From Caenorhabditis elegans (taxonomy: Eukaryota; Nematoda; Chromadorea; Rhabditida; Rhabditidae): a stretch of DNA of 64,000 nucleotides. The position numbers were made by a program, and so were the translations under genes. Below, one piece after another: positions 7,736 through 58,700 of the stretch. The stretch covers positions 2,852,001 to 2,916,000 of the forward strand of contig NC_003280.10 of assembly GCF_000002985.6 (NCBI RefSeq), written 5' to 3'. Positions within the stretch are counted from its first letter, which is position 1, and the number at the start of each line of letters is the position of its first letter. Below the pieces are notes generated by a model, which was given only the letters and a program-made list of their open reading frames with translations, made no database searches and was not told the DNA's origin.

Positions 7736-8341
7736 GTCTTTCACAAAAATCACATGGGCGGTATGATTTTTCGATTAAGAAAAAAAAAAGTTCGAAACAA
7801 CAGTCATGACAACAATATCAATTAATCAGTAGCGATCTTTCAACAAAAATGACATCAATTTTTATTTTTGTAGTTTTTGTAGTATCTGTAGTATTTGTAG
7901 TGTATCTAGCTTGAAGCTATTCAGAAAAATTTGGGTGGAAAATCGGAATCTCGAGGATCAGCAGCAGCAGCAGCAGCCCATCAATAGGGGGATGGGGGGA
8001 GAAAGTCGGAGGTCATCACCCCTTTTCGGACAAAATCGGGAAATAGTGTGGAGATTGGTGGAGACGCAGACGTTCAATGTCTGTTTTGGACCGAACTGGA
8101 GGAATTGGGGGGAACTTGAATGGAAAACGAGACGAGAAATGGGGTAGGAAGGGGGAGAAATTGGGAGAATAGAATTGGAAGTTGAATAGAGGAATAGGCG
8201 TAGCCGTTTTTTTTTAGGTGAAATTCTAAGTTTTATATTGATTGGGCCTTGATTTAGACTAAAATGGCATTTCGATGCACCATGTTGCTCACACTTTTCC
8301 CCCCTGCCACCTAACCACCCAGCTACTGGTATGTCGCCGGC

Positions 8342-8423
8342 GGAGAGATGGCCGAGCGGTCCAAGGCGCTGGTTTAAGGCACCAGTCCCTTCGGGGGCGT
8401 GGGTTCGAATCCCACTCTCTTCA
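8342..8423 (+). tRNA. tRNA-Leu (anticodon AAG)
   Basis: An 82-nt class II tRNA. The acceptor stem GGAGAGA pairs with TCTCTTC (one G-T) and the discriminator is A8423. The D arm begins TGGCCGAGCGG (A box). The anticodon stem CTGGT/ACCAG encloses the loop TTAAGGC, giving anticodon AAG (Leu, CUU). A long variable arm (TCCCTTCGGGGGC) and T arm GTGGG-TTCGAAT-CCCAC follow. There is no intron and CCA is not encoded. A TTCTTTTT run follows, a typical Pol III stop. Confidence 0.97.
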
Positions 8424-8716
8424 GTTCTTTTTGTAGCTATTTTGCAGTGGGTTTATCTGATAGCAAACGGAGATAAGTTGCGGGCTTTTGCAAAATAGGG
8501 GAAATTGTTTTGCAAAATACCGTTTTTTCACAAAACGTGTTCAACAAACACCTATTATTGTTGGCAGGAAGTCAGAAAACAGGGAGAAATTCAAAAAAAA
8601 AAGTATATGAGAAAACATTTGTCAACAAACAAAAGTGGTAAATATTTGAATAGACAAAACATATGAGAAAACATGGCAAAAAAGGTTTTTCTGGCAATAC
8701 AATTTAAAAAAATGTT

Positions 8717-9405: not shown

Positions 9406-9549
9406 AAAATTACAAAAACTGCTGGAAATAACTAAAAGTGGTGTGTTTTACGTTTTTTATGTCAGAATTTGATAATATTTATAAAAGCCCGCATCGTATC
9501 ACCGTTTGTTATCAGATAAACCCCCTGCAAAAAAGCTACAAAAAAGAAT

Positions 9550-9631
9550 TGAAGAGAGTGGGATTCGAACCCACGCCCCCGAAGGGACTGGTGCCTTAAA
9601 CCAGCGCCTTGGACCGCTCGGCCATCTCTCC
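9550..9631 (-). tRNA. tRNA-Leu (anticodon AAG), second copy
   Basis: All 82 nt are identical to the gene at 8342-8423, on the opposite strand, facing it across ~1.1 kb. Acceptor, D, anticodon (AAG), variable and T arms are all intact. Flanks match the left arm for ~20-60 nt at a time. Confidence 0.97.
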
Positions 9632-10176
9632 GCCGGCGGCACACCAGGAGCAGAGCGGTTAGATGTCAGGTGGAAAATTTAAAAGATGAGAGATAACGTG
9701 TTTGCAACATGGTGCATCGAAGTGTCATTTTAGTCTAAATCAGCGTCTAAATCAGCAATCAATGTCAAACTTTGTGTAAAAAAGGCAAAAGTCAATACAA
9801 TATATCGAGAAATTATATAAAAAGCCAGGAAAACCCTACAAACTTTGTCGAAATCTCCAAGAAGAGAAATAGAACGAAAAAGAAACCGAGTGAAAGTGTT
9901 TGGGGCGGAATCTATCTATGTACGGATCAATTGAATATATAAATATGGGGGTGTCATCCAGAAGGCGGAAAATTATTACTTCGTCATCGAGAGGAGGCTA
10001 GTAGCGCGCGGAAGAGAGATCGCAGTGCGTGACGGCAAAATGACTGTGGGGGGAGAGGTTGTGGAGGATTAAGTTTGGATTTATTAGGTTTTAAACAAAA
10101 AAAAAGTTGGGAAATTCGGGAAATTTTGGAATTTTGACCCCAAAAACCCACTTTTCCTGCAATTTTCAAAAATTTC

Positions 10177-34391: not shown

Positions 34392-37005
34392 TTATTTGAT
34401 ACGATAGATGAGATGAACACCGGATGAAGTATCCACAATATCAGACATTTCTCCAATTTCCAGTGCAAATGAGGCGTCTTCGAATGGTTTCTGCATTTGA
34501 CGACGTTCGAATGGCTGAAAATTTTAGAGTTTTTGGGTTTTTTGGGGTGAAAAAATCGATATTTTTGAAGATTTTTTGGAGGTGAAATTAGCTGAAATTG
34601 CAGGTTTTTAGGCGAAAAATTGACCTTTTTTCAAGTTTTTAGAGGAAAAATTGGTAAAAATGAATTTTTTCGCAGTTTTTCACGCAAATTTATAGCTAAA
34701 ATATTATATTAAAATTGATTTTTTTTCCCTGATTTTCAGGGTAATTTTACAGGCAATTTTTCGTGATTTTGTCATAAAATTCGAAGAAAAATTGTATTTT
34801 TCGGAGCATTTTAAGGGTAATTTTGATATTTTTAATTTTTGAACATTTTTTTGTGAATTTTTGATAGCAATTTACAAAAAAAACAAAGTTTTCCGTGAAA
34901 ATCGATTTTTTTTCAGACTTTCGGAGATTTTTCAGGTTTTTCATATTAAAATCCAAGAAAATTGGGGCTCTTTTTGACGCTTTTTCAATAATTTTAACAG
35001 TTTTCAATGGATTTTCGACAAAAATCGGACGTTTTTGAGCTTTTTTCACCCGAAATTCGACAGTTTTCTGGGCATTTTTCACTTTTTAGAGGTTTTTAGG
35101 CTTTTTTTCAGCTATAAAATCGAAGGAAAATTGTATTTTTGAAGCTTTTTCACACAAAAATTTCAGGAAAAACGACATTTTTCAACAAAATTTGAACTTT
35201 TCAGGGCAAAAATTTGCGTTTTTTCGGTACTTTTCCTCCGCCCGGCGGTTACAGTACCCCAAGATCTCCGCCACGTTTTGCCGAACTGCAATCGCTGAAT
35301 TGTTTGGCGAGTTCACGGAATTTTCCCTCAATGTTCGACGCATCTTTCAGCTCCTTTTCGTAATCTGAATGAAAAAATATTGATTTTTAGACCAAAAATT
35401 CCGATTTTTTAGCTTAAAAATCATTGAAAAATTGGAAAATTCGGCGAAAATATACTTTTTCTGTCGAAAAATCGAAAAATAGAGCTATTTTTCGATTTTT
35501 TTTTTAGTAAAAAACCTGCAAAATGCAGTTTTTAGCCGATTTTAGACACAAAAATGAAGAAAAATCGATGATGAAATCCAATTTTTCGGCTAAATGTGAG
35601 AAAATCCGCAATTTTCAGCAAAAACCCGGGGAAAATCGATTTTTAGCGCTGAAAATTGAATTTCCGCGCGAATTTTTAGGTTTTTACTGTGAAAATGGGT
35701 GATTTAGAGCTTTTTTGGCCATTTTTCCGCGAAAATGCCAGATTTTAGGCTGAAAATTAAGAAAACGTCGATAAAAATCATTTTTTCTGGAATTTTTGCG
35801 GCTAAAATTCAGGAAATTGGCAATTTTCGGCTCATTACTCTGAAAAATCAAAATGTTTCTCGGTTTTTCAAGTGATTTTTAAGGAAAAAATGCGAAAAAC
35901 CGCAAATTTCCCGAAATTCTCGTTTTTTTTATACAATTTTTAGTCAAAAATTTCATTTTTTTAAAGCAAAAAACGGCAATTTTAGTGCTTTTTTCGGACA
36001 AAAACGGTGAAAAACTGACTGAAATGCCGATTTTAGGCTGAAAAATGAAGAAAAATCGATTAAAAACCCATTTTTCCGGGTAAAATTAGAGAAAATCGCA
36101 TTTTTTTGGGATTTTTGAGAACCAATTTTTCATAATAAAAAACAATTTTTAGTGCTGAAAATCCGCATTTTGGGGGTTTAAAATGTGAAAAATCCGGATT
36201 TTTCCGAGAAAAATTTAGTATTTGAGCTAAACAGCCGAAAAACTTGCCATTTTCATGAAAATTTCACTAATTTTCCGCTAAAAATCAGAAAATTGGCAAT
36301 TTTCGGGTTAAAACTCTAAAAAATCGTAATTTTTCGGGGTTTCAACGCGATTTTTCAATTAAAAATCGGTTTTTTGCGCGGAAAATTGGTCAAAAATCAG
36401 AGAATTTGCTTTTTTAAGAAATTTTCTCGAGAAAAATCGAAAATTTCGGCTAAAAATTAAATTTCCGCACGGTTTTTCAGGTTTTTAATATAAAAAATTG
36501 GCGAAAATCCGGTTTTTTTGGCATTTTTTACAGGAAAAACACGTTTTTCGAGCTAAAAAATCCGATTTTTCACGAAAATTCCGCAAATCCGCACTTTTGA
36601 GGATGTTAATCGCGTCATCCTTGGATCTTGTGATGTGATCGGACCGCCAAGACGATGGATTACGGCTTCCATCGTGTTTTACGAGCAAATGAAGGCATTG
36701 GACGGATTTTAGCTCGCTTCCCTGGAAAAATATCGATTTTTGCGGGGTTTTTGGGTGAAAAAACGCGAAAAATCACGAATTTTGAGTGATTTTGAGCGAA
36801 AAATCAGCTAAAAATTGCCATTTTCTCACTTTTCCAAACGCCGACTCGTCTGGGCGCTCCCATTGGCTGCGGCCGGTGGCCGTGTTGAAGTAGTAGACGC
36901 GATCTGGAAAAATTATCGATTTTTTTCGCAGAATTTCGCGAATTTCCAACCATTCGAGCGGCTCTGACGCTTTTCCCATCCGGCTGGCAGCGAATTATCG
37001 GACAT
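34392..37005 (-). CDS. pinn-1: PINN-1, Pin1-type peptidyl-prolyl cis-trans isomerase, 161 aa
   Basis: Exons: 37005-36951, 36903-36830, 36721-36595, 35364-35258 and 34514-34392; phases 1, 0, 1, 0. The WW domain (residues ~5-38) has Trp10 and Trp33 and the YYFN core, and binds phospho-Ser/Thr-Pro. The parvulin domain (~48-161) has [32 protein letters not shown] with the catalytic Cys at 111, and a C-terminal GVHLIYRIK with the second His at 155. The phosphate-binding basic cluster of human Pin1 (Lys63, Arg68, Arg69) is present as Lys58 and Arg63, but the third position is Asn64. The enzyme isomerises pSer/Thr-Pro bonds, mainly in the nucleus. The acceptor TTCTCACAG abuts the ATG, and the sqv-2 stop is 217 nt upstream, so it is probably a downstream operon gene. 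Confidence 0.97.
35640..36392. repeat. Left arm of a long inverted repeat (pinn-1 intron 3)
   Basis: The sequence from ~36040 to 36392 is the near-perfect reverse complement of 38546-~38895 in sqv-2 intron 3. The segment ~35640-35770 pairs with ~38895-39030. An extra ~270 bp (35770-36040) is present only in this arm. Pairing runs across blocks such as AAAAATCGGTTTTTTGCG and CCGGATTTTTCCGAG. Confidence 0.88.
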
Positions 37006-37221: not shown

Positions 37222-40200
37222 TTATGGAATATTCGATCCGTTGACTCTTGTACAACATTCGCTGGGTGCTTTCGAGAAATCGTACACGTAGGATGGATGT
37301 TTTCTGCAAGAAATTGGTTAAAAATTGGTGAAAAATGATGGAAATTGATTAACGCGGCCGAGAAATCGATTTTAGGCAAGCGCGCTCTATGGAGAATCGG
37401 TCGTCGCGGCCACGGAGTCCTCTCGGAGAAGAGGTGAATTAATAATTTCGCGAATTTCGCATAATTTTGGCGATTAAAAGGGGTTTTTGCAGGTTATTTC
37501 CGGTTTTTCGATGGGAAAATTGATGAAAATTGCATTTTAAATACGAATCCAGCAAAAAACAAGCGAAAATTCGATTTTTTCGCTGTTTTTTCCCGAGAAA
37601 CTTCGAAAATGGCTTAATGTTTCGCCGACTTTCTAAAAAATCGGCCTATAAATGCGAATTTTGCAATTTTTCGAGTGATTTGGCGCAATTTTCGCACGAA
37701 AAATCAGTTTTTTGGTCGAAAAATGGAAAAATTGGCAAAAAATTGGAATTTTTCGGGGTTTTGTACAAGAATGTCGAAAATTGGACGATTTTCGGTAAAA
37801 ATCGACCATTTTTATCCGATTTTTCCAATTTTCCGGCCGATTTTAACACAAAAATCTGGTTTTTTTGCGGAAAAACCCAGAAAATGGCCAAAAATGGGTA
37901 AAAATTGCGAATTTTCTAATTTGTCCAGCAGATTTTGGCAATTTTTAGGCAAAAATCTGAGAAAATAGCTTTAAAAAATTGGTGAAACTTGTGAATTTTC
38001 TAATTATCCGAGCGATTTGGCAGTTTTAGGCTAAATTTCGGTTTTTTGGGCTGAAAATTGGTGAAAATTGCGATTTGTCCAATTTTCCGGGAGATTTTGA
38101 CGATTTTTTTACTAAAAAAACCCAAAAAATTAGCGAATCCGGGGCAATTTTTTCGCATTTTTCACAAAATCGGCTTAAAAATTTCCGAAAAAAAAGGCGA
38201 TTTTTCTAATTTTTCGAGCGATTTCATGGGTTTTTTTTGGTGGAAAAATCCAAAATTTGGCGTAAAAATTTTGTCAAAAAATTCAGTTTTTCGAAAAATG
38301 GACCATTTTTTCCGATTTTTCTTAGGAAAAAGTGAATTTTCCAATTTTCCGGGCGATTTTGACGATTTTTAAACCAAAAATTCAATTTTTTTTTGTTTTT
38401 AAATTCAAAAAATCCAAAATTTTAAGGCTAAATCCTTTAATGTTAAGGCCAAAATTTTGATTTTTAGGCCAAAAAATCAAAATTATTTTTAAAAAATCTT
38501 AAAATTTTTTTTTTAATTTTAAAAATCCAAAATTTCCAAATTTTTGGCCAATTTTCCGCAAAAAACCGATTTTTAATTGAAAAATCGCGTTGAAACCCCG
38601 AAAAATTACGATTTTTTAGAGTTTTAACCCGAAAATTGCCAATTTTCTGATTTTTAGCGGAAAATTAGTGAAATTTTCATGAAAATGGCAAGTTTTTCGG
38701 CTGTTTAGCTCAAATACTAAATTTTTCTCGGAAAAATCCGGATTTTTCACATTTTAAACCCCCAAAATGCGGATTTTCAGCACTAAAAATTGTTTTTTAT
38801 TATGAAAAATTGGTTCTCAAAAATCCCAAAAAAATGCGATTTTCTCTAATTTTACCCGGAAAAATGGGTTTTTAATCGATTTTTCTTCATTTTTCAGCCT
38901 AAAATCTGGCATTTTCGCGGAAAAATGGCCAAAAAAGCTCTAAATCACCCACAATTTTCACAGTAAAAACCTAAAAATTCGCGCGAAAATTCAATTTTCA
39001 GCACTAAAAATTGATTTTTATTGAAAATTGGTTCAAAAATCCCAAAAAATGCGATGATTTTTCGTCCATTTCCGCTGACTTACTGGAACTCTTTAGCACA
39101 AAGTTTTCCAGTTTTCTTCAAATTTTCAAACATCTCTTGCATCTCTTGCTCCGTGTGCTTATGAGTAATTAAATACTCATTATTACATCCACGGGATCTC
39201 CATTCGGTATCAAATCTCGGATCATGTACATATTTAACATCTAGGCCGCCTATCCAGGCGCCTACCGACACATCTTCATTCCGATAGTGTCGGAAGAGTT
39301 GGGCATTGATTGCCAAGAATCGAATGAGCTCATAAGAGAGCACATAACCACCGCCAAGTTGATATGGAAGATAACGATCACACAGATTCCATTCGGGTTC
39401 TTTCCATTTTCCTTTACGGAATGGTTTAGCTCGACCATCTAGGAATCCCCAGTAGAGCATTGGATCTTGAATTTGTTTGAGATTTATGATTAGTGGGGTG
39501 ATTCGGACGAATGAGTCGATGTCGGTCTGATGAAAAAATGGGAGATTTTGGGGGAAAATCGGCGGTGGTTTTAGAGTGAAAAATTGGAAAATTTTAATGC
39601 AAATAATAACAATAATAATTCTACCGGAGTTTTTTTTTTGTTGAAAAATTTAATGTTTTTAGCCAAAAAATGAAAATTTGGGCAGAGGTTCCCCGTAAAC
39701 GTGACTAAATGGAGCCCATCGGGAATTGTGATGAGAATATCGTAATTCTATTGGCGAATTAACGAGGTTTTGCACATCACAATACTCAATAGATACATCC
39801 ATTTGCCACAGGAAAATTGAGGTTTTTGAGTCAAAATTTGCACAAAATTGGGCAAAATTTCACATTTTGCCGATTTAAAAAAAATTTGAGGATTAAAACC
39901 GTTTTTCACAACAGTTTCTCATCATTTTTTTGTGCTGAAAAATCTAAAAATTTAGCCGATTTTCGATATTTTTCGGGTTTATTAAATTATAAACATTTTT
40001 CCTGACAAAATATGGCATTTTTGATAATTTTTAACGATTTTTCGCAAAAATCTCCCAACTTTGGAGTAATTTATCTCTAAAACTGACCGAGAATCTTAAT
40101 TGTTAGACTAAAACTTCAAGTTTTTTTATAAGAATAAATGAATTTTTCCGTGAAAATCTACAAAATCACTGCAACTTTTTCCACACGAGGGACGAGGAAA

Positions 40201-42380
40201 AGTGGTTTCTAGGCCATGGCCGAGGGGCCGACAAGTTTCAGCGGCCATTTATCTTGCTTTGTTTTCCGCCTGTTTTCTTTCGTTTTTCATCGATTTTTTT
40301 TCGTTTTTTCTTAATAAAACTGATAAATAAATACTTTTTGCACAGATGCTAAAACAATTTCCGAGTAAAAAATTATGTATTCAGTGGGCAAGCAGCGGTG
40401 AAAGTGGTCAATGTAAAATGATGGATTACGGGAATACAAAACCTAAACTTTTTCTGAAACATGATACATATGATGCTTAGATGCTGAAATTACCTGATTT
40501 TCATAACGAGACCGCTGAAAAAGTTTTGAGATTTTCAAAATTAAACTTTTTGTGCGAAAATCTCGACTTTTTCACTAAAAAATTTGAATTTTGAAAACCT
40601 CAAAACTTTTTCAGCGGTCTCGTTATGAAAATCAGGTAATTTCAACATCTAAGCATCATATGTATCATGTTTCAGAAAAAGTTTAGGTTTTGTATTCCCG
40701 TAATCCATCATTTTACATTGACCACTTTCACCGCTGCTTGCCCACTGAATACATAATTTTTTACTCGGAAATTGTTTTAGCATCTGCAAAAAATATTTAT
40801 TTATCAGTTTTATTAAGAAAAAACGAAAAAAATCGATGAAAAACGAAAGAAAACAGGCGGAAAACAGAGCAAGATAAATGGCCGATGAAACTTGTCGGCC
40901 CCTCGGCCATGGCCTAGAAACCACTTTTCCTCGTCCCTCGTCAGGAAAAAGTTGCAGTGCGGATTTCCAGCCAAATTCCAGTTGTATACCTTCAAGAAAA
41001 ATTTGAATTTAAAATTGGCAAAAGCGTGTACAAAACAGGCCAAAGTCTTCTTTGCCAGCCTCTCATAGGACTCTTCATGGCGGTCGAGAAGCGCCAAATC
41101 GCCGAATTTCTCATTTTCCTCGGCCAGCAACCGACGATCTTCGGCCGCGAGGCCCATCGTTCCGACGGCGAATTTTGCGATAAAAACGGACGGTCCTTTA
41201 GTTGATAGGCGGAACCATGTGTCACGGACATTTTGACGTCGTTCTGTTTCGTTTGGTGACGTCAGAATTGAAATGTACAGAAATGTTTCGGGAAGATTAG
41301 TTGGAGAGGAGATTAAAGGAGCATTGGAGCCACCGCCTGAAAATTGGGGAAAATTATCGATTTTTCTGGAAAAAAAATCGGAAATTTGGAGAAAAAATCG
41401 GGTCTTGAAGCGAAATTTGAGCAATTTCTGAGCTCAAAATTCGAAATTTTTCGCAAAATTATCAATAGGGCGCAGTTGCTGCTGACATTTGGAGCAAAAA
41501 TCACTGAAAATCAAAATTTTGCGGAGAAATGAGTCTCGAAACGAAAATTTTGCAATTTTTGAGCTCGAATTTCCAAAATTTTGAAAAATTATCAGTAGAG
41601 CGCGGTTGCTGCATTTTTCAAAAATTCAAAATTCGCTTTACTGACAATTTTTCTAAAATTTTGATGTCTCGAAACGAGATTTAAACAATTTTGTGCCCAA
41701 AATTTGAAATTTTTAGAAAAGTTATCATTAGAGCGCGGTTGCATTCTTCAAAAATTCAATTTTCATGTTTTTTAAATTTCCGAATAATGCAACTGCACTC
41801 TACTGTTAATTTTCCTTTAAAAAATTGGAATTTTGTGGAAAAAATGGGTCTCGGAACGAAATTTATGCAATTTAGCTCAAAATTCGAAAATTTTAGAAAA
41901 ATTATCAGTAGAGCACGGTTGCATTTTTCAAAAACTAAAATTTTATATTTTTCTAAATTTTCGAATAATGCAAGTGCACTCTGCTTCTAAAAAATTTGAA
42001 ATTTTTAGAAAAAATATCAGTAGAGCGCGGCGCATTATTTGAAAATTCAAAAAATTTGAATTTTTCGAAAAATGAAACTGCGCTCTACTGATAATTCTCG
42101 GGAATTTCGGGTTTTTTAATGGAAAAATTCAAATTTTTGGGTCAAAATCTCCGAAAATGGCTAAAAATGGCAATTTTCGAGCTAAAAATTCAAAATTCAA
42201 AGTTTTTTCCGAAATTTCGAGGATTTTTTCAAATTTTTCCGCTTAAAATTGCTCCGAACCATTGATGGCTGAAGGTGTTGCTGGCGGTGAATCATCCCAT
42301 CCACAATTGAATATTACTGCAAGTGTGCACAATGAGCAAAAAGCGCCAGCTACGAGCAAATATGTTCGGTAGAATCTCAT
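37222..42380 (-). CDS. sqv-2: SQV-2, beta-1,3-galactosyltransferase II (GAG linker), 330 aa
   Basis: Exons: 42380-42260, 41336-40990, 39526-39084 and 37303-37222; phases 1, 0, 2. It adds the second galactose of the xylose-Gal-Gal-GlcA linker on which chondroitin and heparan sulfate are built, in the Golgi (family of human B3GALT6). A short cytosolic start is followed by a signal anchor (~residues 6-25, [18 protein letters not shown]), type II topology. The DxD metal/UDP site is TDIDSFVR (Asp158, Asp160), followed by [16 protein letters not shown] and [11 protein letters not shown]. The last exon supplies YVYDF...SECCTRV, matching the family C-terminus. Without it exon 3 would read to a stop at 39080, but CCA|GTAAGTC at 39084 is a strong donor and the spliced length equals the known 330 aa. 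Introns 1-3 are 0.9-1.8 kb and hold repeats and duplicated modules. Confidence 0.97.
38546..39040. repeat. Right arm of the pinn-1/sqv-2 inverted repeat (sqv-2 intron 3)
   Basis: Reverse complement of 36040-36392 and 35640-35770 in pinn-1 intron 3 (see that entry). Spacing between the arms is ~2.15 kb, including both the end of sqv-2 and the start of pinn-1. Confidence 0.88.
39592..40167. repeat. Block X: ~575-bp duplicated block in sqv-2 intron 2, with hairpin and small ORF
   Basis: Almost identical to 56961-57533 in intron 2 of the large E2 gene. It contains a 130-bp GC-richer island (39685-39815) with a strong hairpin at 39726-39782: TTGTGATG pairs with CATCACAA, and inside TCGTAATTC pairs with GAATTAACGA around a TATTGGC loop. 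On the minus strand the island is open for 47 codons (39802-39659: [20 protein letters not shown]...). Either reading (exon remnant or structured RNA) is possible; the product is not recognised. Confidence 0.85.
40167..40959. mobile_element. Palindromic foldback element Y, copy A (sqv-2 intron 2)
   Basis: A 793-bp inverted repeat: arms ~40167-40543 and ~40573-40959, loop ~30 bp, arms near-identical. Termini are CACTGCAACTTTTTCC and its reverse complement. Each arm carries a 44-codon ORF (plus 40346-40480; minus 40783-40649) starting [18 protein letters not shown], preceded by a splice-acceptor-like TTTTTGCACAG or TTTTTTGCAG. There is no transposase and no clear target-site duplication. A second copy is at 53897-54691. 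Confidence 0.85.
41455..42080. repeat. GTAGAGCGCGGTTGC dispersed repeat in sqv-2 intron 1
   Basis: Five copies of a unit with TATCAGTAGAGCGCGGTTGC (or CACTCTACTG on the other strand) and CTCGAAACGAAATTT, spaced ~110-170 bp and in both orientations. Confidence 0.75.
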
Positions 42381-43596: not shown

Positions 43597-46500
43597 TTAT
43601 CTCCGTTGTTTTTCAAATTCGGCGGCCGCCAGTACCACGTATCTAACTGCAAATGCAAGTACCGCCACGCCTGCAATCATCATCATATTCGATAAAAATG
43701 AAGAGAGTCGGGGAACTCCGACGCCACCGCGCGATGCATCGCCTCTGCGTCTATAAATTGAATTGAGAGAGAGATTACTGTAGGGATACTGTAGAAAATT
43801 AGAGGAAAATTTTGGCTCATTTTCATAGATTTTGAGCCTAAAAAATCGAAAAAATTATGAAAAAGCCAAAAATTTGGCTCATTTTTTACAAATTTGGGCT
43901 AAAAATTCCGAAAAATTCGAAAATTGGGCTCATTTTCATGGATTTTGAGCTAAAACATCGAAAAACCACTAGAAAATTTGGAAAAAATTCCGAAAAATAC
44001 GAAAATTTGGCTCATTTTTCCAAATTTTGAGTTAAAAAGCTTTAAAAATCCAAAAATTAGGCTTGAAATGGCCAAATTTAGGCCATTTTCAGACTAAAAA
44101 TTTAAACTTTCAGAAAACTGAAAATTAGGCTTAAAATGGTCCAATTTAAGCCTAAAAAGGGTCCAAATTCAGCTTAAAATGGTCCAATTAAAGCCTAAAA
44201 TGGTCCTATTTCAGCTTAAAATGGTCCAATTTAAGCCTAGCAGGGGTCCAATTTAAGCCTAGCAGGGGTCCAATTTAAGCCTAAAATGGTCCAATTTAAG
44301 CCTAAAAAGGGTCAAATTGAAGCCTACAAGGGATTCAATTTAAGGCTAAAATAGTCCAAATTAAGCCTAAAACGGTCCTATTTCAGCTTAAAATGGTCCA
44401 ATTTAAGCCTAACAGGGGTCCAATTTAATACTAGCAGGGGTCCAATTCAAGCCTAAAATGGTCCTATTTAAGCCTAGCAGGGGTCCAATTTAAGCTTAAA
44501 ATGGTACAATTTCAGCCTGATATGGTCCAATTTAAGCCTAAAATGGCCCAATTTCAGTCGAAAATGGTCCAAATTCCAGCGTAAAAGGGTCAAATTGAAG
44601 CCTAAAAGGGATTCAATTTAAGCCTAAAATGGTCCAATTTAAGCCTAAAAGGGATTCAATTTAAGCCTTAAATAGTCCAAATTAAGCCAAAAATCCAATT
44701 TTCAGCCGATTTTTCCAATTTTTCCGCTTTTTCTGCCTAAAAAGCCCAAATTTCCGGGCTTTTTCCGTGCTTCTTCAGGCCATACCGATTCTTGATAGCA
44801 GTCTCCTCTTCACGGATACTATCCAACTCTTGCTGATTCATTTTTTCCATTTCTTCACGAATTTGATCGGCTTCTTCGGGAAACAGGGCACAAAACGATT
44901 TGTCCTTCAAATTCCACTGCTTTGACTTCTTGGCGAGCAATTTTCGTTCAGATTCTGACGTCACAAGAGAGCCCAGTGTCGGTTGATTATCATTCATAAA
45001 TGACATGAGACCGGTGATAATTGTTGAGACAGTCCACGCAGGATTCCATGTGTCGGGGTGATAATCAGAGATTGACAGGCACAGGCGGGTGTTTGTCTGC
45101 AAAAAATGCAAACTTTGGGTGGTTTTAAGCTTGAAAATTGAGGTTTTTAGTCCAAAAATTGTGATTTTTAGTCCAAAAATTGAGATTTTTAGTCCTAAAA
45201 TTGAGGCTTTTAGTCCAAAAATTGAGATTTTTAGTCCAAAAATTGTGATTTTTAGTCCAAAAATTGAGATTTGTAGTCCTAAAATTGTGATTTTTAGTCC
45301 ATAAATTGAGGTTTTTAGTCCAAAAATTGTGATTTTTAGTCCAAAAATTGAGATTTTTAGTCCAAAAATTGTAATTTTTAGTCCTAAAATTGAGGCTTTT
45401 AGTCCAAAAATTGAGATTTATAGTCCTAAAATCGAGGTTTTTAGTCCAAAAATTGAGATTTTTAGTCCAAAAATTGTGATTTTTAGTCCAAAAATTGAGA
45501 TTTTTAGTCCTAAAATTGAGGCTTTTAGTCCAAAAATTGAGATTTTTAGTCCAAAAATTGAGATTTGTAGTCCTAAAATTGTGATTTTTAGTCCAAAAAT
45601 TGAGATTTGTAGTCCCCAAAAATTGAGGTTTATAGTCCTAAAATTGAGATTTATAGTCCTAAAATTGAGGCTTTTAGTCCAAAAATTGAGATTTTTAGTC
45701 CAAAAATTGAGATTTGTAGTCCCCAAAAATTGAGGTTTATAGTCCTAAAATTGAGATTTATAGTCCTAAAATTGAGGCTTTTAGTCCAAAAATTGAGGTT
45801 TATAGTCCAAAAATTGAGATTTTTAGTCCATAAATTGAGGCTTTTAGGCCTAAAATTGAGGTTTATAGTCCTAAAATTGAGATTTTTAGTCCTAAAATTG
45901 AGGCTTTTAGTCCAAAAATTGAGATTTTTAGTCCAAAAATTGTGATTTTTAGTCCAAAAATTGAGATTTGTAGTCCTAAAATTGAGGCTTTTAGTCCAAA
46001 AATTGAGGTTTTTAGTCCAAAAATTGTGATTTTTAGTCCAAAAATTGAGATTTTTAGTCCAAAAATTGTGATTTTTAGTCCTAAAATTGAGGCTTTTAGT
46101 CCAAAAATTGAGATTTATAGTCCTAAAATCGAGGTTTTTAGTCCAAAAATTGAGATTTTTAGTCCAAAAATTGTGATTTTTAGTCCAAAAATTGAGATTT
46201 TTAGTCCTAAAATTGAGGCTTTTAGTCCAAAAATTGAGATTTTTAGTCCAAAAATTGAGATTTGTAGTCCTAAAATTGTGATTTTTAGTCCAAAAATTGA
46301 GATTTGTAGTCCCCAAAAATTGAGGTTTATAGTCCTAAAATTGAGATTTATAGTCCTAAAATTGAGGCTTTTAGTCCAAAAATTGAGATTTTTAGTCCAA
46401 AAATTGAGATTTGTAGTCCCCAAAAATTGAGGTTTATAGTCCTAAAATTGAGATTTATAGTCCTAAAATTGAGGCTTTTAGTCCAAAAATTGAGGTTTAT

Positions 46501-48328
46501 AGTCCAAAAATTGAGGCTTTTAGTCCAAAAATTGAGATTTTTAGTCCAAAAATTGAGATTTATAGTCCTAAAATCGAGGTTTTTAGTCCAAAAATTGAGG
46601 TTTGTAGTCCTAAAATTGTGATTTTTAGTCCATAAATTGAGGTTTTTAGTCCAAAAATTGAGGTTTGTAGTCCTAAAATTGTGATTTTTAGTCCAAAAAT
46701 TGAGATTTATAGTCCTAAAATTGAGGCTTTTAGTCCAAAAATTGAGGCTTTTAGTCCAAAAATTGAGATTTTTAGTCCTAAAATTGAGATTTATAGTCCT
46801 AAAATTGAGATTTATAGTCCTAAAATTGAGGCTTTTAGTCCAAAAATTGAGGCTTTTAGTCCAAAAATTGAGATTTTTAGTCCAAAAATTGAGTTTTGTA
46901 GACCACAAAAATTTAGGTTTTTAGTCCATAAATTGAGGCTTTTAGTCCTAAAATTGAGGTTTATAGTCCTAAAATTGTGATTTTTAGGCCTAAAATTGTG
47001 ATTTTTAGTCCGAAAATTGAGATTTGTAGTCCCCAAAATTTGAGGTTTATAGTCCTAAAATTGAGGTTTATAGTCCTAAAATTGAGGCTTTTAGTCCAAA
47101 AATTGAGGTTTATAGTCCTAAAATTGAGATTTTTTAGTCCAAAAATTGAGATTTGTAGTCCTAAAATTGAGGTTTTTAGTCCAAAAATTGAGATTTGTAG
47201 TCCTAAAATTGAGATTTTCTTTTGGATCCAAAAAACCAAAATTTCGAGCTTTTTGTGTTTGTCAAGCTCAATTTTGCTCCAATTTGCCGGAAAATAGCTC
47301 AATTTTTTGGCCAAAATTCACCTGAAATCTGCCATTCGGTGTTAGCATAAGAATTGCGGGCGGTTTGAATGGAAAATCTTTGGGAAAAAGCAATTTTCCC
47401 ATATAAATTCCACCTTCGTACGGTGTTTTTGGCGCTCCAATGATAATATATCGCCATTCGAGAATATTCGTCTCCAGTGGTGCAGCTTTCATGAATGGAA
47501 CGGGTTCTCTGCAAAAAATTAGGCTTTTTAGGCCAAAAATTGAAATTTTTAGTCCAAAATTTGGGCTTTTTAGGCTAGAAATTGAGTGTTTTAGTATAAA
47601 AGTTCAGGTTTTTAGCCTGAAAAATAGGGGTTTTAGTCCAAAAATTAAGGGTTTTAGGCCACAAATTGAGGGTTTAAAACCTGAAAATTGAGGTTTTCAG
47701 GCCAAAAATTGACATTTATAAGCCAAAAAATGAGATTTCAATACCAAAAATTGAAGTTTTTAGTCCGAAAAATAGGCTGTGAAGCCTGAAAATAGGCTTT
47801 TTAGCATGAAAAACATGGTTTTCTAGAGCAAAATTGAGGATTTTAGTCCAAAAACTTTTTGTTACTCCAAAATGTGGGCTTTTCAGGCCGATAATTGAGG
47901 TTTTTAGTCCGAAAATAGGCTGTCTAGCCTAAAAAAAACAGGCCTGTTAGCCTGAAAAATAGGGTTTCAAGTCCGAAAAATGAAGTTTTTAGCCCGAAAA
48001 TTGAGGTTTTTAGTCCGAAAATTAAGGCTGAAAGCCCGGAAATTGAGTTTTTTAGTCCAAAAACGGGCTTCTGAGCCTGGAAAATAGAGATTCAAGCCCA
48101 AAACTTGAGGTTTCTAGTCCAAAATTCTTACATTTCAAGCATTTCAAGCCGTTTTTCTCAGAATTTCTGCGATTTTACCAAATTTACACCGAATTTCTTC
48201 ATTTTTGGGCCAATTTTCTCAATTTTCGGCGCATTTCAAGCCAACTTTAGGCCCCAAACTCACTTCAACAATCTCTGATAGTCCTTTTTAAGCCTCTGAA
48301 GTGCAACTGTAGATACTCCCGACGTCAT
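43597..48328 (-). CDS. UBE2J2-type ubiquitin-conjugating enzyme, tail-anchored, 238 aa
   Basis: Exons: 48328-48264, 47508-47322, 45096-44786 and 43750-43597; phases 2, 0, 2. This is an E2 of the Ubc6/UBE2J2 class, which ubiquitinates ER proteins in ER-associated degradation. The UBC fold covers residues ~8-170 with NILEWRYIIIGAPKTPYEGG, LMLTPNGRF and [20 protein letters not shown]; the catalytic Cys is residue 90. NLKDKSFCALFPEE matches the family downstream helix. The C-terminal exon provides the membrane anchor (~209-229, MMMIAGVAVLAFAVRYVVL) and a short EFEKQRR tail. A reading of exon 3 past 44786 stops at 44737, but the donor CG|GTATGG joins the anchor exon in frame. C. elegans has two named genes of this type, ubc-15 and ubc-26; I cannot tell which is which. 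Confidence 0.95.
44130..44690. repeat. 21-bp minisatellite GGTCCAATTTAAGCCTAAAA in intron 3 of the tail-anchored E2 gene
   Basis: About 25 copies of a 21-bp unit with variants (GCCTAGCAGG, GCCTAAAAGG, CAGCTTAAAAT). It is cleanest at 44170-44480. Confidence 0.88.
45125..47220. repeat. 21-bp minisatellite TTTTTAGTCCAAAAATTGAG in intron 2 of the tail-anchored E2 gene
   Basis: About 2.1 kb, roughly 98 copies of the 21-bp unit AGTCCAAAAATTGAGATTTTT with a few substitutions (GAGG/GTGA, CCTAAAA). The period is a multiple of three and units lack stops in several frames, so long spurious ORFs run through it on both strands. Higher-order repetition is visible: blocks of ~700 bp (e.g. 45380-45735 and 46075-46430) are near-identical. 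Confidence 0.95.
47517..48130. repeat. Diverged relatives of the 21-bp minisatellite in intron 1 of the tail-anchored E2 gene
   Basis: Units such as GGCCAAAAATTGAAATTTTT and AGTCCGAAAATTGAGGTTTT at ~20-25 bp spacing, more diverged than the array in intron 2. Confidence 0.75.
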
Positions 48329-52700: not shown

Positions 52701-55700
52701 GAAAACCTAGTTTTTATCAAAAATGGAAGTTCTAACCTCGAAAAATTGAAAAATATGGGCAATTTTCGTAGTTTTCCCGGAGAAATTGCCGAAAATTCCA
52801 TGGAAAAGGGGTTTTCAGGTGGTTTTTACCCCACGAAAATTTGGAAATTTTAGAGATTTTGTTGGTTTTTTACGGTTTTTAGCCCGAAAAATTGGGAAAT
52901 TCGGGCAATTTTCGCAGTTTCAGGGGGTTTTTACACCGAAAAATTGGAAAATTCGAGAGATTACGGAGGTTTTTACCGGGGAAACCCTAGTTTTTTATCG
53001 AAAAATTGAGATTTTTAAGCGGAAAAATTGGGAAATTTGGGCAATTTTCGCAGATTTAGGGGGGAAAATGGGTTTTTAGGTGGTTTTTACAAGAATTTTG
53101 GAGGATTTTACCGGGGAAAACCTAGTTTTTATCAAAAAATGGAAGTTTTTACACCGAAAAATTGATAAATTTGGGCAATTTTCGTAGTTTTCCCGGAGAA
53201 ATTGCCGAAAATTCCATGGAAAAGGGGTTTTTAGGTGGTTTTTACCACAAAAAATTTTAGAGATTTTGCTGGTTTTTTACGGTTTCTACGGGGATTTTCT
53301 CAAAATTCAGATTTTCAACAAAAAAATTCCCCAAAAACTCAACTTTTACGTTGAAATTCCCAATTTTAACTGAAAATCCGAGGTTTTTGCCGAAATTTTT
53401 GCAAATTTTGCGCTCAAAACTGGACCAATATTGAAATTTCTGTCGGAAAAATAGAGAAATTTGGGTTTTTAATAGTGTCCTGAGATTTTTTTAGCTCAAA
53501 ATTTCGCCAAAAGTCAAAATTTTCAAAAAATCCGTTTTTTTTAAGCTTTTTTTGCGAAAAAATCAAAAAAATAGCTTTTTTAATGGAAAACTTTAATTTT
53601 TTTTCGATTTTTTAACAAAAAACAAAAACTCACACGTGCCGGGAGATTGTTGTCGAAACCGAATCCACGTACAATTGGAGCATTTGGAGCAGCATTTGGT
53701 GCTCCTCCAGTTGGAGCAGCATGCTCTGGGAGCATTGTTGGAGCAATATTTGGCTCATTCGGTGTCGGCAGTACTCCGGTCCAATCTTTGACGAATTGTG
53801 GAAAGAATCGACGGAATTCGCGGTACTGGAAATTGAATTTTGATGGAATTTCTAGCAATTTTTCTTGGTAAAAAGCGAAAATTTCACCAAAATTTACACT
53901 GCAACTTTTTCCTGACGAGGGACGAGGAAAAGTGGTTTCTAGGCCATGGCCGAGGGGCCGACAAGTTTCAGCGGCCATTTATCTTGCTTTGTTTTCCGCC
54001 TGTTTTCTTTCGTTTTTCATCGATTTTTTTCGTTTTTTCTTAATAAAACTGATAAATAAATATTTTTTGCACAGATGCTAAAACAATTTCCAAGTAAAAA
54101 AATTATGTATTCAGTGGGCAAGCAGCGGTGAAAGTGGTCAATGTAAAATGATGGATTACGGGAATACAAAACCTAAACTTTTTCTGAAACATGATACATA
54201 TGCTGCTTAGATGCTGAAATTACCTGATTTTCATAACGAGACCGCTGAAAAAGTTTTGAGATTTTCAAAATTAAACTTTTTGTGCAAAAATCTCGACTTT
54301 TTCACTAAAAAATTTGAATTTTGAAAACCTCAAAACTTTTTCAGCGGTCTCGTTATGAAAATCAGGTAATTTCAGCATCTAAGCAGCATATGTATCATGT
54401 TTCAAAAAAAGTTTAGGTTTTGTATTCCCGTAATCCATCATTTTACATTGACCACTTTCACCGCTGCTTGCCCACTGAATACATAATTTTTTACTCGGAA
54501 ATTGTTTTAGCATCTGTGCAAAAAATATTTATTTATCAGTTTTAATAAGAAAAAACGGGAAAAATCGATGAAAAACAAAAGAAAACAGGCGGAAAACAAA
54601 GCAAGATAAATGGCCGATGAAACTTGTCGGCCCCTCGGCCATGGCCTAGAAACCACTTTTCCTCGTCCCTCGTCAGGAAAAAGTTGCAGTGCGGATTTCC
54701 AGCCAAATTCCAGTTGTATACCTTCAAGAAAAATTTGAATTTAAAATTGGCAAAAGCGTGTACAAAACAGGCCAAAGTCTTCTTTGCCAGCCTCTCATAG
54801 GACTCTTCATGGCGGTCGAGAAGCGCCAAATCGCCGAATTACACATTATTTATTGGAATTTTAGGAGAGAAAAACCAAATTTTTAGCCCTTTTTCTAGTT
54901 TTCCGGGCATGTTTACATGATTTTTCGGCAAAAAAAGCCCAAAAAATCTGGTCAATTTTGATGGAATTTTCGGTTTTTTTTTTTTCAAATTTTATGAGGA
55001 AAACTCAATTTTAAGGCCTTTTTTTTCCGAATTTTAAATAATTTCTGTGATTTTTAACGTTTTAAAATGGAATTTTTCCGGTTTCCTTATTTTGTGCAAT
55101 TTTTTCGCTTAAAAACCTGCTTTTCAGCGAAAAAGTGGCTTTTTTCTACATTTTTTCCAGGGAAAAGGGGGCTTTTGCAGCAAAAATCATATTTTTTCTA
55201 AATTTCTGAATTTTTCCACCAAAAGTTCGGCTTGTTTAGCACAATTTTGTCAATTTCAATCGATATTTGCGAAACTTTGACTAAATCTCTTGTTTAAGCG
55301 ATTGAAACCAGTTTTTCGACGAAAAATCGCTTAAACAAGAGATTTGGTCGACATTACGCAAATATCGATTGAAATTGTCAGAATTGTGCTAAAAAAGCCG
55401 AATTTTTTGTGGAAAAATTCAGAAATTTAGAAAAAATGTGTTTTTTGCTGCAAAAATTCCCTTTTCCCTGGAAAAGTGTAGAAAAAAGCCCCATTTTAGC
55501 TGAAAAGCAGGTTTTTAAGCGAAAAAATTGCACAAAGACAGAAAACCGGGCAAATTCCATTTTAAAACATTAAAAATCACAGAAATTATTTAAAATTCGG
55601 AAAAATGCCTAAAAATTTGGGGTTTCCCCATAAAATTTGGAAAAAACCGAAAATTTCATCGAAATTGACCGGATTTTGGGCTTTTTTGCCGAAAAAATCA

Positions 55701-58700
55701 TGTAAAAATACCCGGAAAACTAGAAAAAGGGCTAAAAATTGAATTTCGTCCAAATTTCTCGGTTTTTGCCAGAAAAAAGTCATTTTTTCACCAAAATTCT
55801 TGGTTTTTAGTCAATTTTCATAGATTTGCGAATTTTTAAATCAATTTTTCGTTGTAAAATTCCGGTTTCTTCAATTTTCAGGAGCATTTCGAGCAAAAAT
55901 TCTCCCAGAATTTTTCGGCTCAAAAATCGGAAAAAAACGCTTTGAAAAAAAGATTTTTGAGTGGAAAAAAAATGAAGAAAAGTCGATTTTCTGCGCAAAA
56001 ATCGAGATTTTATGTCAAAAATTAGCAATTTTTGTTGAAAAACCCTGTTAAAAGCGATTTTTAGCGAATTTTTCGCATAAAAATGACACGTTTTTAGTGA
56101 TTTTTTACGGATTTTCTCGCAGCAAAATTCGACACTTTTTTTCTAAATTTCTCACTTTTCCAGACAAAATTTCCGGAAATTTTCCAAATTCCAATAGAAA
56201 ATCCGCGATTTTTGTCCAAATTTCGGGGATTTTTCCAATTTTTAAGCTCGAATTCCGGAGCTTTTGGCTCAAATTTGCCAGATTTTTCGAATTTTTTACG
56301 GAAAATCCCAGTTTTTCGGTCAAATTTTGGCTGAAATTTAAAATTTTTAGGAAATATTTTAAGATTTTTCCAATTTTCAGCCCAAAATCCGCGATTTTTG
56401 GCCAAATTTTCGGGGTTTTTTCTCCAAAATTTCACACATTCCAAGGCTTTTGCCCCAAATTTTGGGGAATTTTTGCAATTTTGAGCCAGAAATTCGAGTT
56501 TTTTCGCAGAATTTTCCATTTTGGGTTTTTAAAATTCTACATTTTTGCTCAATTTCTGCGTTTTTCAGGTAAAATTTAAGGATTTTTCCAATTTTTTTTT
56601 CCAAATTTTCAGGAGCATTTCGAGAGCAGCAGCAGCAGCACCTTAACATTAAACTCTTTGCTCGCCGCCGCATACATCCTCTGATCCTGTGGAGTTCCGG
56701 CAATTGATCCGGCAGCCGGCGAATTTTCGTTCATAAATGAATGAAGTCCTATTAGAATTGCAGATACAGTCCATCCGGGATTCCATGATTCCGGATGATA
56801 ATCAGAAATTGATAGGCATAGGCGGGTATTTGTTTGGAATCTGCAAAAAACACTTTTTTTTTTTTAAATGAAACTTCGACAGAAAATGACTGAAATTTTA
56901 CCGTTTTAATGACATTTTTTACCATTTTTCAGCGATTTTTTAAAGGAAAATTTGGGGCACTTTTAATGCAAATAATAATAATAATTTTTTTTCGGAGTTT
57001 TTTTTTTTTGTTGAAAAATTTAATGTTTTTAGCCAAAAAATGAAAATTTGGGCAGAGGTTCCCCGTAAACGTGACTAAATGGAGCCCATCGGGAATTGTG
57101 ATGAGAATATCGTAATTCTATTGGCGAATTAACGAGGTTTTGCACATCACAATACTCAATAGATACATCCATTTGCCACAGGAAAATTGAGGTTTTTGAG
57201 TCAAAATTTGCACAAAATTGGGCAAAATTTCACATTTTGCCGATTTAAAAAAAATTTGAGGATTAAAACCGTTTTTCACAACAGTTTCTAATCATTTTTT
57301 TGTGCTGAAAAATCTAAAAATTTAGCCGATTTTCGATATTTTTCGGGTTTATTAAATTATAAACATTTTTCCTGACAAAATATGGCATTTTTGATAATTT
57401 TTAACGATTTTTCGCAAAAATCTCCCAACTTTGGAGTAATTTATCTAAAACTGACCGAGAATCTTAATTGTTAGACGAAAACTTCAAGTTTTTATAAGAA
57501 TAAATGAATTTTTCCGTGAAAATCTACAAAATCGTCAAATTAGGCCATTTGTAGGTTAAACTTTTCAAATGCAAAACTGAATTTTTTACAATTTATTGGT
57601 TAAAATTCTGTAAATTCTGAGAGAATGGAATGTGAACTTTTTTGAATCAAAATCTGAAAAACCAAAGAAAATTGCAATTTTCTCAGAAATTCATCGAGAA
57701 AAAATGAATTTCCGGGTAAAAATCGATTTTTTTTGACGATTTTCAATGATTTTTATGTAACTTTTGAGCAAAAATTAATTTTTTTGACGATTTTCCTCAT
57801 TTTTTCAGCAAAAAATTGATTTTAATCGCATTTTTTGGCCATTTTCCAACTTTTTTGTGCAACTTTCCAGCGAATATGTAAATTTAATCGTATTTTTGAC
57901 CATTTTATACGCTATTTTCCAGCAAAATTTGGTTTTTTACCGCATTTTCTACCATTTTTCTCGATTTTTTCGATATTTTTCAGAAAAACTTGGTTTTAAT
58001 CGTATCTTTACTGATTTTTCCGAATTTTTCAAAAAAAAAAATTAGATTTTTTGCATTTTTCGAGGAAAAAAAAAGGATTTTGTGCCGTTTTTGGCTGATA
58101 TAATCCAATTTTTAAAAACAAAAATGACATTTTTGAACATTTTCAGCAAAAATCGATTTTAATCGCATTTTTCGACCAATTTCAATGATTTTCTTACAAT
58201 TTTTCGGGAAAATTTAATTTTAATCGTATTTTTGGCGATTTCCAATGATTTTTATTTACAAAAAAGTTGGAAAATGGCCAAAAATGCGATTAAAATCAAT
58301 TTTTTCTGAAAAAATGAGGAAAATCGTCAAAAAAATTAATTTTTGCTCAAAAGTTACATAAAAATCATTGAAAACCGTATTTTTTGACGATTTTTTTTTC
58401 GCAATTTTCGTGTCCGTCCGTCATTACTACCTTCCATTCGGTGTAATCATCGTGATAGCAGGTGGACTCCACGGGAAATTCTCCTTAAAAATCACTTTTC
58501 CCCAATAATAACCACCATAGAATGGTGTATCCGGTGATCCACGAAGGCAATAATGCCATTCAAGAATATTATCCTCATTTGGAAGTGCTTTAATTCCATC
58601 AACAGGATCTTGCATCAGTTTTGCGTAGTCTTTTTGGAGGCGTCGAACGGCTGAGCTGGATGCTGTGCCAGCTGCTGGTACGGATACGCCGGGACCCTGC

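Follow-up and report, generated by a model that had tools for sequence, protein, structure and literature searches.

Shared blocks in sqv-2 and an E2 gene

The window analysed here, a 64,000-nucleotide stretch of Caenorhabditis elegans DNA (NC_003280.10, positions 2,852,001 to 2,916,000), holds two genes, both with their frames on the minus strand, that share blocks of closely similar sequence. One is a beta-1,3-galactosyltransferase gene, which we take to be sqv-2, a name adopted from an earlier description of this DNA (the original prediction). The other encodes a ubiquitin-conjugating enzyme (E2) similar to UBE2J2, which we presume to be ubc-26; neither name comes from our analyses. We compared the window with itself by BLAST and counted copies genome-wide in one genome of 100,286,401 bases, in which the window is C2:2852001-2916000. 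Two matches link the genes, both in the same orientation: 40167-41115 corresponds to 53897-54847 (97.9% identity), and 39569-40167 to 56938-57533 (96.5% identity). In sqv-2 the blocks are contiguous in the order X, Y and P, where P is our name for the piece of sqv-2 that is copied into the E2 gene; the latter carries Y and P together and X 2.1 kb further right (Table 1). This confirms the swapped order that the original prediction had described. The border that it had placed between X and Y is also shared, as the homology of X to the E2 gene stops at most one base (a common C) from the left terminus of Y, CACTGCAAC.

Table 1. Positions in the window of the shared blocks and of the features beside them.
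Feature	Positions	Strand	Remarks
X in sqv-2 intron	39592..40166		genome-wide, X has two full copies
Y in sqv-2 intron	40167..40959		near-perfect palindrome of about 790 bp, termini CACTGCAAC...GTTGCAGTG
P in sqv-2	40960..41108	-	30 bp of intron and 119 bp of exon end, beta-1,3-galactosyltransferase gene
Left ATTTA	53892..53896		flanks the E2 insert; presumed 5-bp target duplication
Y in E2-gene intron	53897..54691		
P copy in E2 intron	54692..54847	-	same strand as host gene
Right ATTTA	54848..54852		presumed 5-bp target duplication
UBE2J2-like E2 coding exon, with Y+P to its left and X to its right	56642..56842	-	exon borders by eye
X copy in next E2 intron	56961..57533		

The 149 bases of P at 40960-41108 are identical to 54692-54840, and the next seven aligned bases include two mismatches. 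Parent and copy lie 13.7 kb apart on the same chromosome, and P has no further copies in the genome. Y directly adjoins P at the identical base in both loci. Chance co-occurrence of independent repeats, which the original prediction had named as a result that would overturn it, is therefore excluded, and we rejected independent insertions of Y beside chance neighbours, since a two-copy sequence begins at the same base of Y both times. We also rejected X as a dispersed repeat: besides its two full copies, the 40 further matches are all short pieces from its left part, within X positions 42-149.

In sqv-2 the exon part at 41008-41340 matches Galactosyl_T (Pfam, 1.7e-8) and the B3GALT6 structure (6.3e-14). 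The next exon is found to the left of 39527 (39080-39535 gives a Pfam match at 3.2e-10), so that X and Y occupy most of one intron, with exon borders placed by eye. The intron part of P holds the 5' splice site (by eye), and its exon part comprises 39 codons (FGDLALL...FFLK). In the E2 gene, the exon that separates Y and P from X encodes 67 residues matching residues 88-154 of UBE2J2 (2f4w; 1.3e-18), and reaches only E 0.006 with Pfam UQ_con, under the cut-off of that family. The P copy there keeps its open frame and splice donor on the strand of its host, and its 39 codons score 14.8 of 23 bits against Galactosyl_T, under the curated cut-off. No splice acceptor was seen by eye upstream of this copy, and for this reason an effect on the E2 transcript, or use of the copy as an exon, looks unlikely.

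The Y family and the divergence of the copies

Y is a member of a large repeat family. Its arms are 95-98% complementary, and its 24-letter end has 413 matches with at most one mismatch in the genome, against none for a reversed-pattern control; in a further search, the 40 candidates scored out of 303 yielded 79 arm matches. The search for further copies that the original prediction had called for thus gave a split answer, Y being a common dispersed repeat and X not.

We looked for target duplications at 51 other Y copies with two intact ends. These comprise 21 loci left from 30 returned Y loci after removal of the three window copies (which were tested as sqv-2 and E2), one repeated locus and five one-ended or truncated copies, and 30 added loci with both ends intact, chosen among about 100 exact termini listed. 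A 5-bp duplication is exact in 23 of the 51 and present within one mismatch in 29, as compared with 0.4% and 4.5%, respectively, for mismatched left-right flank pairs. Y therefore shows the dispersed copies, fixed inverted termini and target duplications of a palindromic DNA transposon. It behaves like one of the foldback kind, similar to a miniature inverted-repeat transposable element, and apparently has no transposase gene of its own. Both X and Y hold only short open frames, which were not searched against protein families.

Direct flank repeats of other lengths were seen at three loci: 40 bp at L012 (C5:971055-971847), 12 bp at L025 (C4:1609484-1610276) and 8 bp at L064 (C3:583086-583873). 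These perhaps reflect repair or staggered breaks during insertion. The one long-spaced pair of termini examined as a possible autonomous partner of Y, at C2:13383678-13387258, was rejected. At this locus (L075, C2:13383600-13387350) Y is interrupted by about 2.8 kb of a different repeat, which occurs in part at many other places in the genome. The hairpin at 40471-40657 within Y gave microRNA-precursor matches on both strands, below the gathering score, which correspond to Y's own hairpin.

The copies in the two genes are young. P differs at 0 of 149 positions and the X core at 2 of 524, in line with the recent copying that the original prediction had proposed. The X core is defined as alignment columns 111-638, which omits the low-complexity stretch on the left; it contains two substitutions and two 2-base gaps in the 524 compared positions, and the low-complexity end (columns 62-101) has ten further substitutions and a gap. 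P and the X core are equally young. The claim that identity is very high throughout masks the greater divergence of Y, which differs at 14 of 792 positions, about six times the divergence of the X core and P together (Fisher p = 0.009). For 10 of these 14 differences the rarer state recurs elsewhere in the family, among copies that are aligned in the same orientation. This recurrence makes conversion or recombination among Y copies a likelier source of the extra differences than greater age.

In an alignment of 23 loci (the 21 above and the two in the window), the sqv-2 and E2 copies of Y are mutual nearest relatives, with 98.2% identity and the next at 97.3%. They share variants at columns 430, 503 and 510 that occur in no other aligned copy, in a region near the palindrome loop where the alignment is gappy. 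Among 53 Y loci they are also the sole pair with a common flank at a Y terminus.

The ATTTA repeat around Y and P

At its own two ends neither Y copy shows a 5-bp duplication, the flanks being AAAAT / CGGAT in sqv-2 and ATTTA / CGGAT in the E2 gene. When Y and P in the E2 gene are taken as one unit, ATTTA stands on each side, exactly at the ends previously set by the BLAST match. A presumed target duplication of the length typical of the Y family encloses the transposon together with its flank, which is the arrangement sought in a test for end-bypass transduction. Given ATTTA, the chance of such a pair in exact register is 0.4% (0.8% for any 5-mer), and with offsets of 0-7 allowed it is 2.9% (5.3% for any 5-mer). 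This pair and the 5-bp habit of the family favour either insertion of Y with its flank or fill-in beside a resident Y.

Because P consists of coding-exon sequence of sqv-2 and its splice donor, it moved from sqv-2 to the E2 gene. We think it probable, with some reserve, that a route anchored on Y carried it there. The Y of the sqv-2 intron would have reached the intron of the E2 gene with 149-156 bp of the sequence on its right still attached. This may have happened by end bypass, in which a transposase uses the left terminus of Y and skips the right one, transducing the flank. Alternatively, the E2 gene may already have held a Y, and a break at the right edge of that element may have been filled in from the sqv-2 Y with its flank, with rejoining at the ATTTA end. 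X would then have been copied between the genes in a separate or linked step of break repair anchored at the left terminus of Y. In this scheme we infer both the route by which P moved and the triggering of X copying at the end of Y. Taken as a whole, the most likely event is a two-piece duplication, recent and local and anchored on a transposon, of an already published type and with no need of a circle.

Several observations weigh against this account. No transposase for Y was found, in a check that covered one long-spaced pair of termini and did not compare its open frames with protein families. The ATTTA match was noticed after the fact, which makes 3-5% the fairer chance figure. Of the 7 bp that directly precede the right ATTTA, only five agree with sqv-2, and this stretch may for that reason be filler; by eye the outer end of P has no Y-like terminus and no likeness to GTTGCAGTG. 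Of the 51 other Y copies, 22 likewise show no 5-bp duplication even with one mismatch allowed, although some of these have direct repeats of other lengths; its absence at the sqv-2 Y therefore says little. X is not beside a Y in the E2 gene, and the link between X and Y accordingly rests on one junction. Lastly, all of the evidence comes from one genome.

Both routes have precedents. According to Tan et al. (PMC8277862), end bypass, in which a transposon takes flanking DNA along, is seen with P elements, and gap filling prefers nearby templates, within 15 kb in 160 of 281 cases (56.9%), with duplicated regions of median 224 bp. The unit of Y and P between 5-bp repeats of family length resembles the end-bypass transduction by terminal inverted repeat (TIR) transposons described there. 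It differs from the P-element cases in that the element is a palindromic one from a nematode, the outer end of P shows no visible terminus, and up to seven junction bases may be filler. P also recalls gap filling and the Pack-TIRs of the same source, being short (149-156 bp), adjacent to a transposon and derived from a parent that lies less than 15 kb away on its own chromosome. However, P lies outside Y and not between its two ends, and is therefore not a Pack-TIR by form.

Within C. elegans, the Turmoil-1 transduplication, as outlined in PMC2572040, likewise joins a DNA transposon to host coding sequence. There the coding pieces lie inside the terminal repeats, whereas here a single exon piece lies beside the element, with one extra copy. 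Young gene duplicates of this species, about 50% of whose pairs are partial or chimeric according to PMC2728529, are similarly short, partial and of high identity. The present case differs from them in the transposon-like repeat at its breakpoints and in the lack of a gene annotation for the copied piece. We did not find the sqv-2/E2 case in the literature searched, although it may have been published all the same. The case suggests a way in which palindromic repeats may shift exon pieces between neighbouring worm genes, and since a repeat encloses both transposon and exon piece, wild isolates could serve to test the route.

Transfer of X and neighbouring repeats

The original prediction had offered two explanations for the swapped order, a circular intermediate and two-step template switching. 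In the first, X, Y and P would have been excised as a circle, opened at the X/Y border and put into the E2 gene as Y-P-X. Such duplications turn A-B into a contiguous B-A with a fusion point, as described in PMC7450558. They share with our case, as do the cattle KIT translocations, a block order swapped between donor and recipient, and the common X/Y border and the similar divergence of the X core and P would also fit. The circle is not supported here because it predicts one contiguous Y-P-X insert with a P/X fusion, but in the E2 gene 2.1 kb of sequence with the UBE2J2-like exon parts Y and P from X. The right end of P is joined to the left end of X at neither copy of either block, which largely refutes the circle in this genome. 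Unlike the published circular cases, moreover, the blocks are non-contiguous, there is no fusion junction, and the borders lie at a transposon terminus; Y and P also have their own flanking ATTTA repeat. We regard a circle as very improbable. Swapped block order alone is no evidence for a DNA circle, and the first test in such cases should be for a target duplication around transposon and flank.

Copying in two steps lies nearer the evidence, with the transposon-like Y as the likely agent. Replication-based template switching (fork stalling and template switching, FoSTeS, or microhomology-mediated break-induced replication, MMBIR) would instead have copied Y with P and X as two blocks, with Y a bystander or a fork barrier. 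Two short blocks on one chromosome, in the same orientation and of high identity, would suit this, as would long palindromes near the site, namely Y and an 863-bp palindrome at 54878-55740. However, two of the copy borders, the one left of Y in the E2 gene and the one where X ends on the right, coincide with a Y terminus, a site that random switching would not pick, and ATTTA stands on each side of Y and P. On balance we find replication-based switching unlikely.

Because X meets the left terminus of Y in sqv-2, its transfer probably involved that terminus. Each direction of this transfer has its own scenario. A single event may have started in sqv-2, where a cut at the left end of Y freed Y and P into the E2 gene at ATTTA and the broken X end was copied into a second E2 break. 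The X copy ends and the Y-P copy starts at the same place in the donor, and P and the X core are similarly diverged. But this event requires X to be native to sqv-2, yet Y stands there without a target duplication with X (AAAAT / CGGAT), and no trace of the second break was found. We consider it possible, with less than even confidence. That one cut yielded both E2 pieces, with Y and P integrated by transposase and the X end serving as a run-off template for the second break, seems to us rather doubtful. If true, it would provide an example from nature, resolved to the base, of how a transposon can set off the shuffling of two blocks in the germline of an animal.

Conversely, X may have moved from the E2 gene to sqv-2. 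A haplotype whose E2 gene carried a Y at AAAAT, just where X ends on the right, would have recombined with the sqv-2 Y and brought X with it. The X/Y junction resembles an ordinary insertion junction of Y, and the tip of the sqv-2 Y next to X (columns 17-179) differs from the E2 Y by three substitutions and a T insertion. At column 18 this tip has the family-majority base, and the other three arms have a rare one. The same differences could nevertheless stem from arm-to-arm conversion in the E2 copy, and in this genome no Y stands beside X in the E2 gene. We consider this scenario, too, possible with less than even confidence. The 202 bp to the right of X in the E2 gene have no other match in the genome and contain no Y. 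No target duplication around X was seen by eye in the flanks at either locus, and CGGAT against CGGCG near 39560 agrees at three of five positions, which is not significant.

X was also considered as a structured RNA family and rejected: at gathering score Rfam found two tRNAs in the window, neither of them in X, and every match listed for X with a limit of E 5 had E above 1. The minus strand of X gives a better fold than any of 200 shuffled versions (z -2.9, 0/200 as good), and the plus strand is not clearly better (z -0.9, 33/200 as good). A single 22-letter piece of X had no exact match in viral contigs, and a single 25-letter piece of P had none in public genome contigs; near genomes may be missing from these collections.

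Other repeats lie nearby. The 863-bp palindrome, with arms 86% alike, begins 30 bp to the right of the insert of Y and P; genome-wide, its left arm has no matches beyond itself, the opposite arm and two short stretches, and the palindrome is a possible fragile site. Just left of the X-Y-P locus is an inverted duplication (36022-36397 and 38540-38914), 98.9% identical and 2.1 kb apart. A long tandem array spans 45134-47218, with many alignment offsets that are multiples of 21 bp. Finally, the two tRNA genes (8342-8423 and 9550-9631) have equal Rfam scores and opposite orientation, and lie inside an inverted repeat (8295-8489 and 9483-9677).

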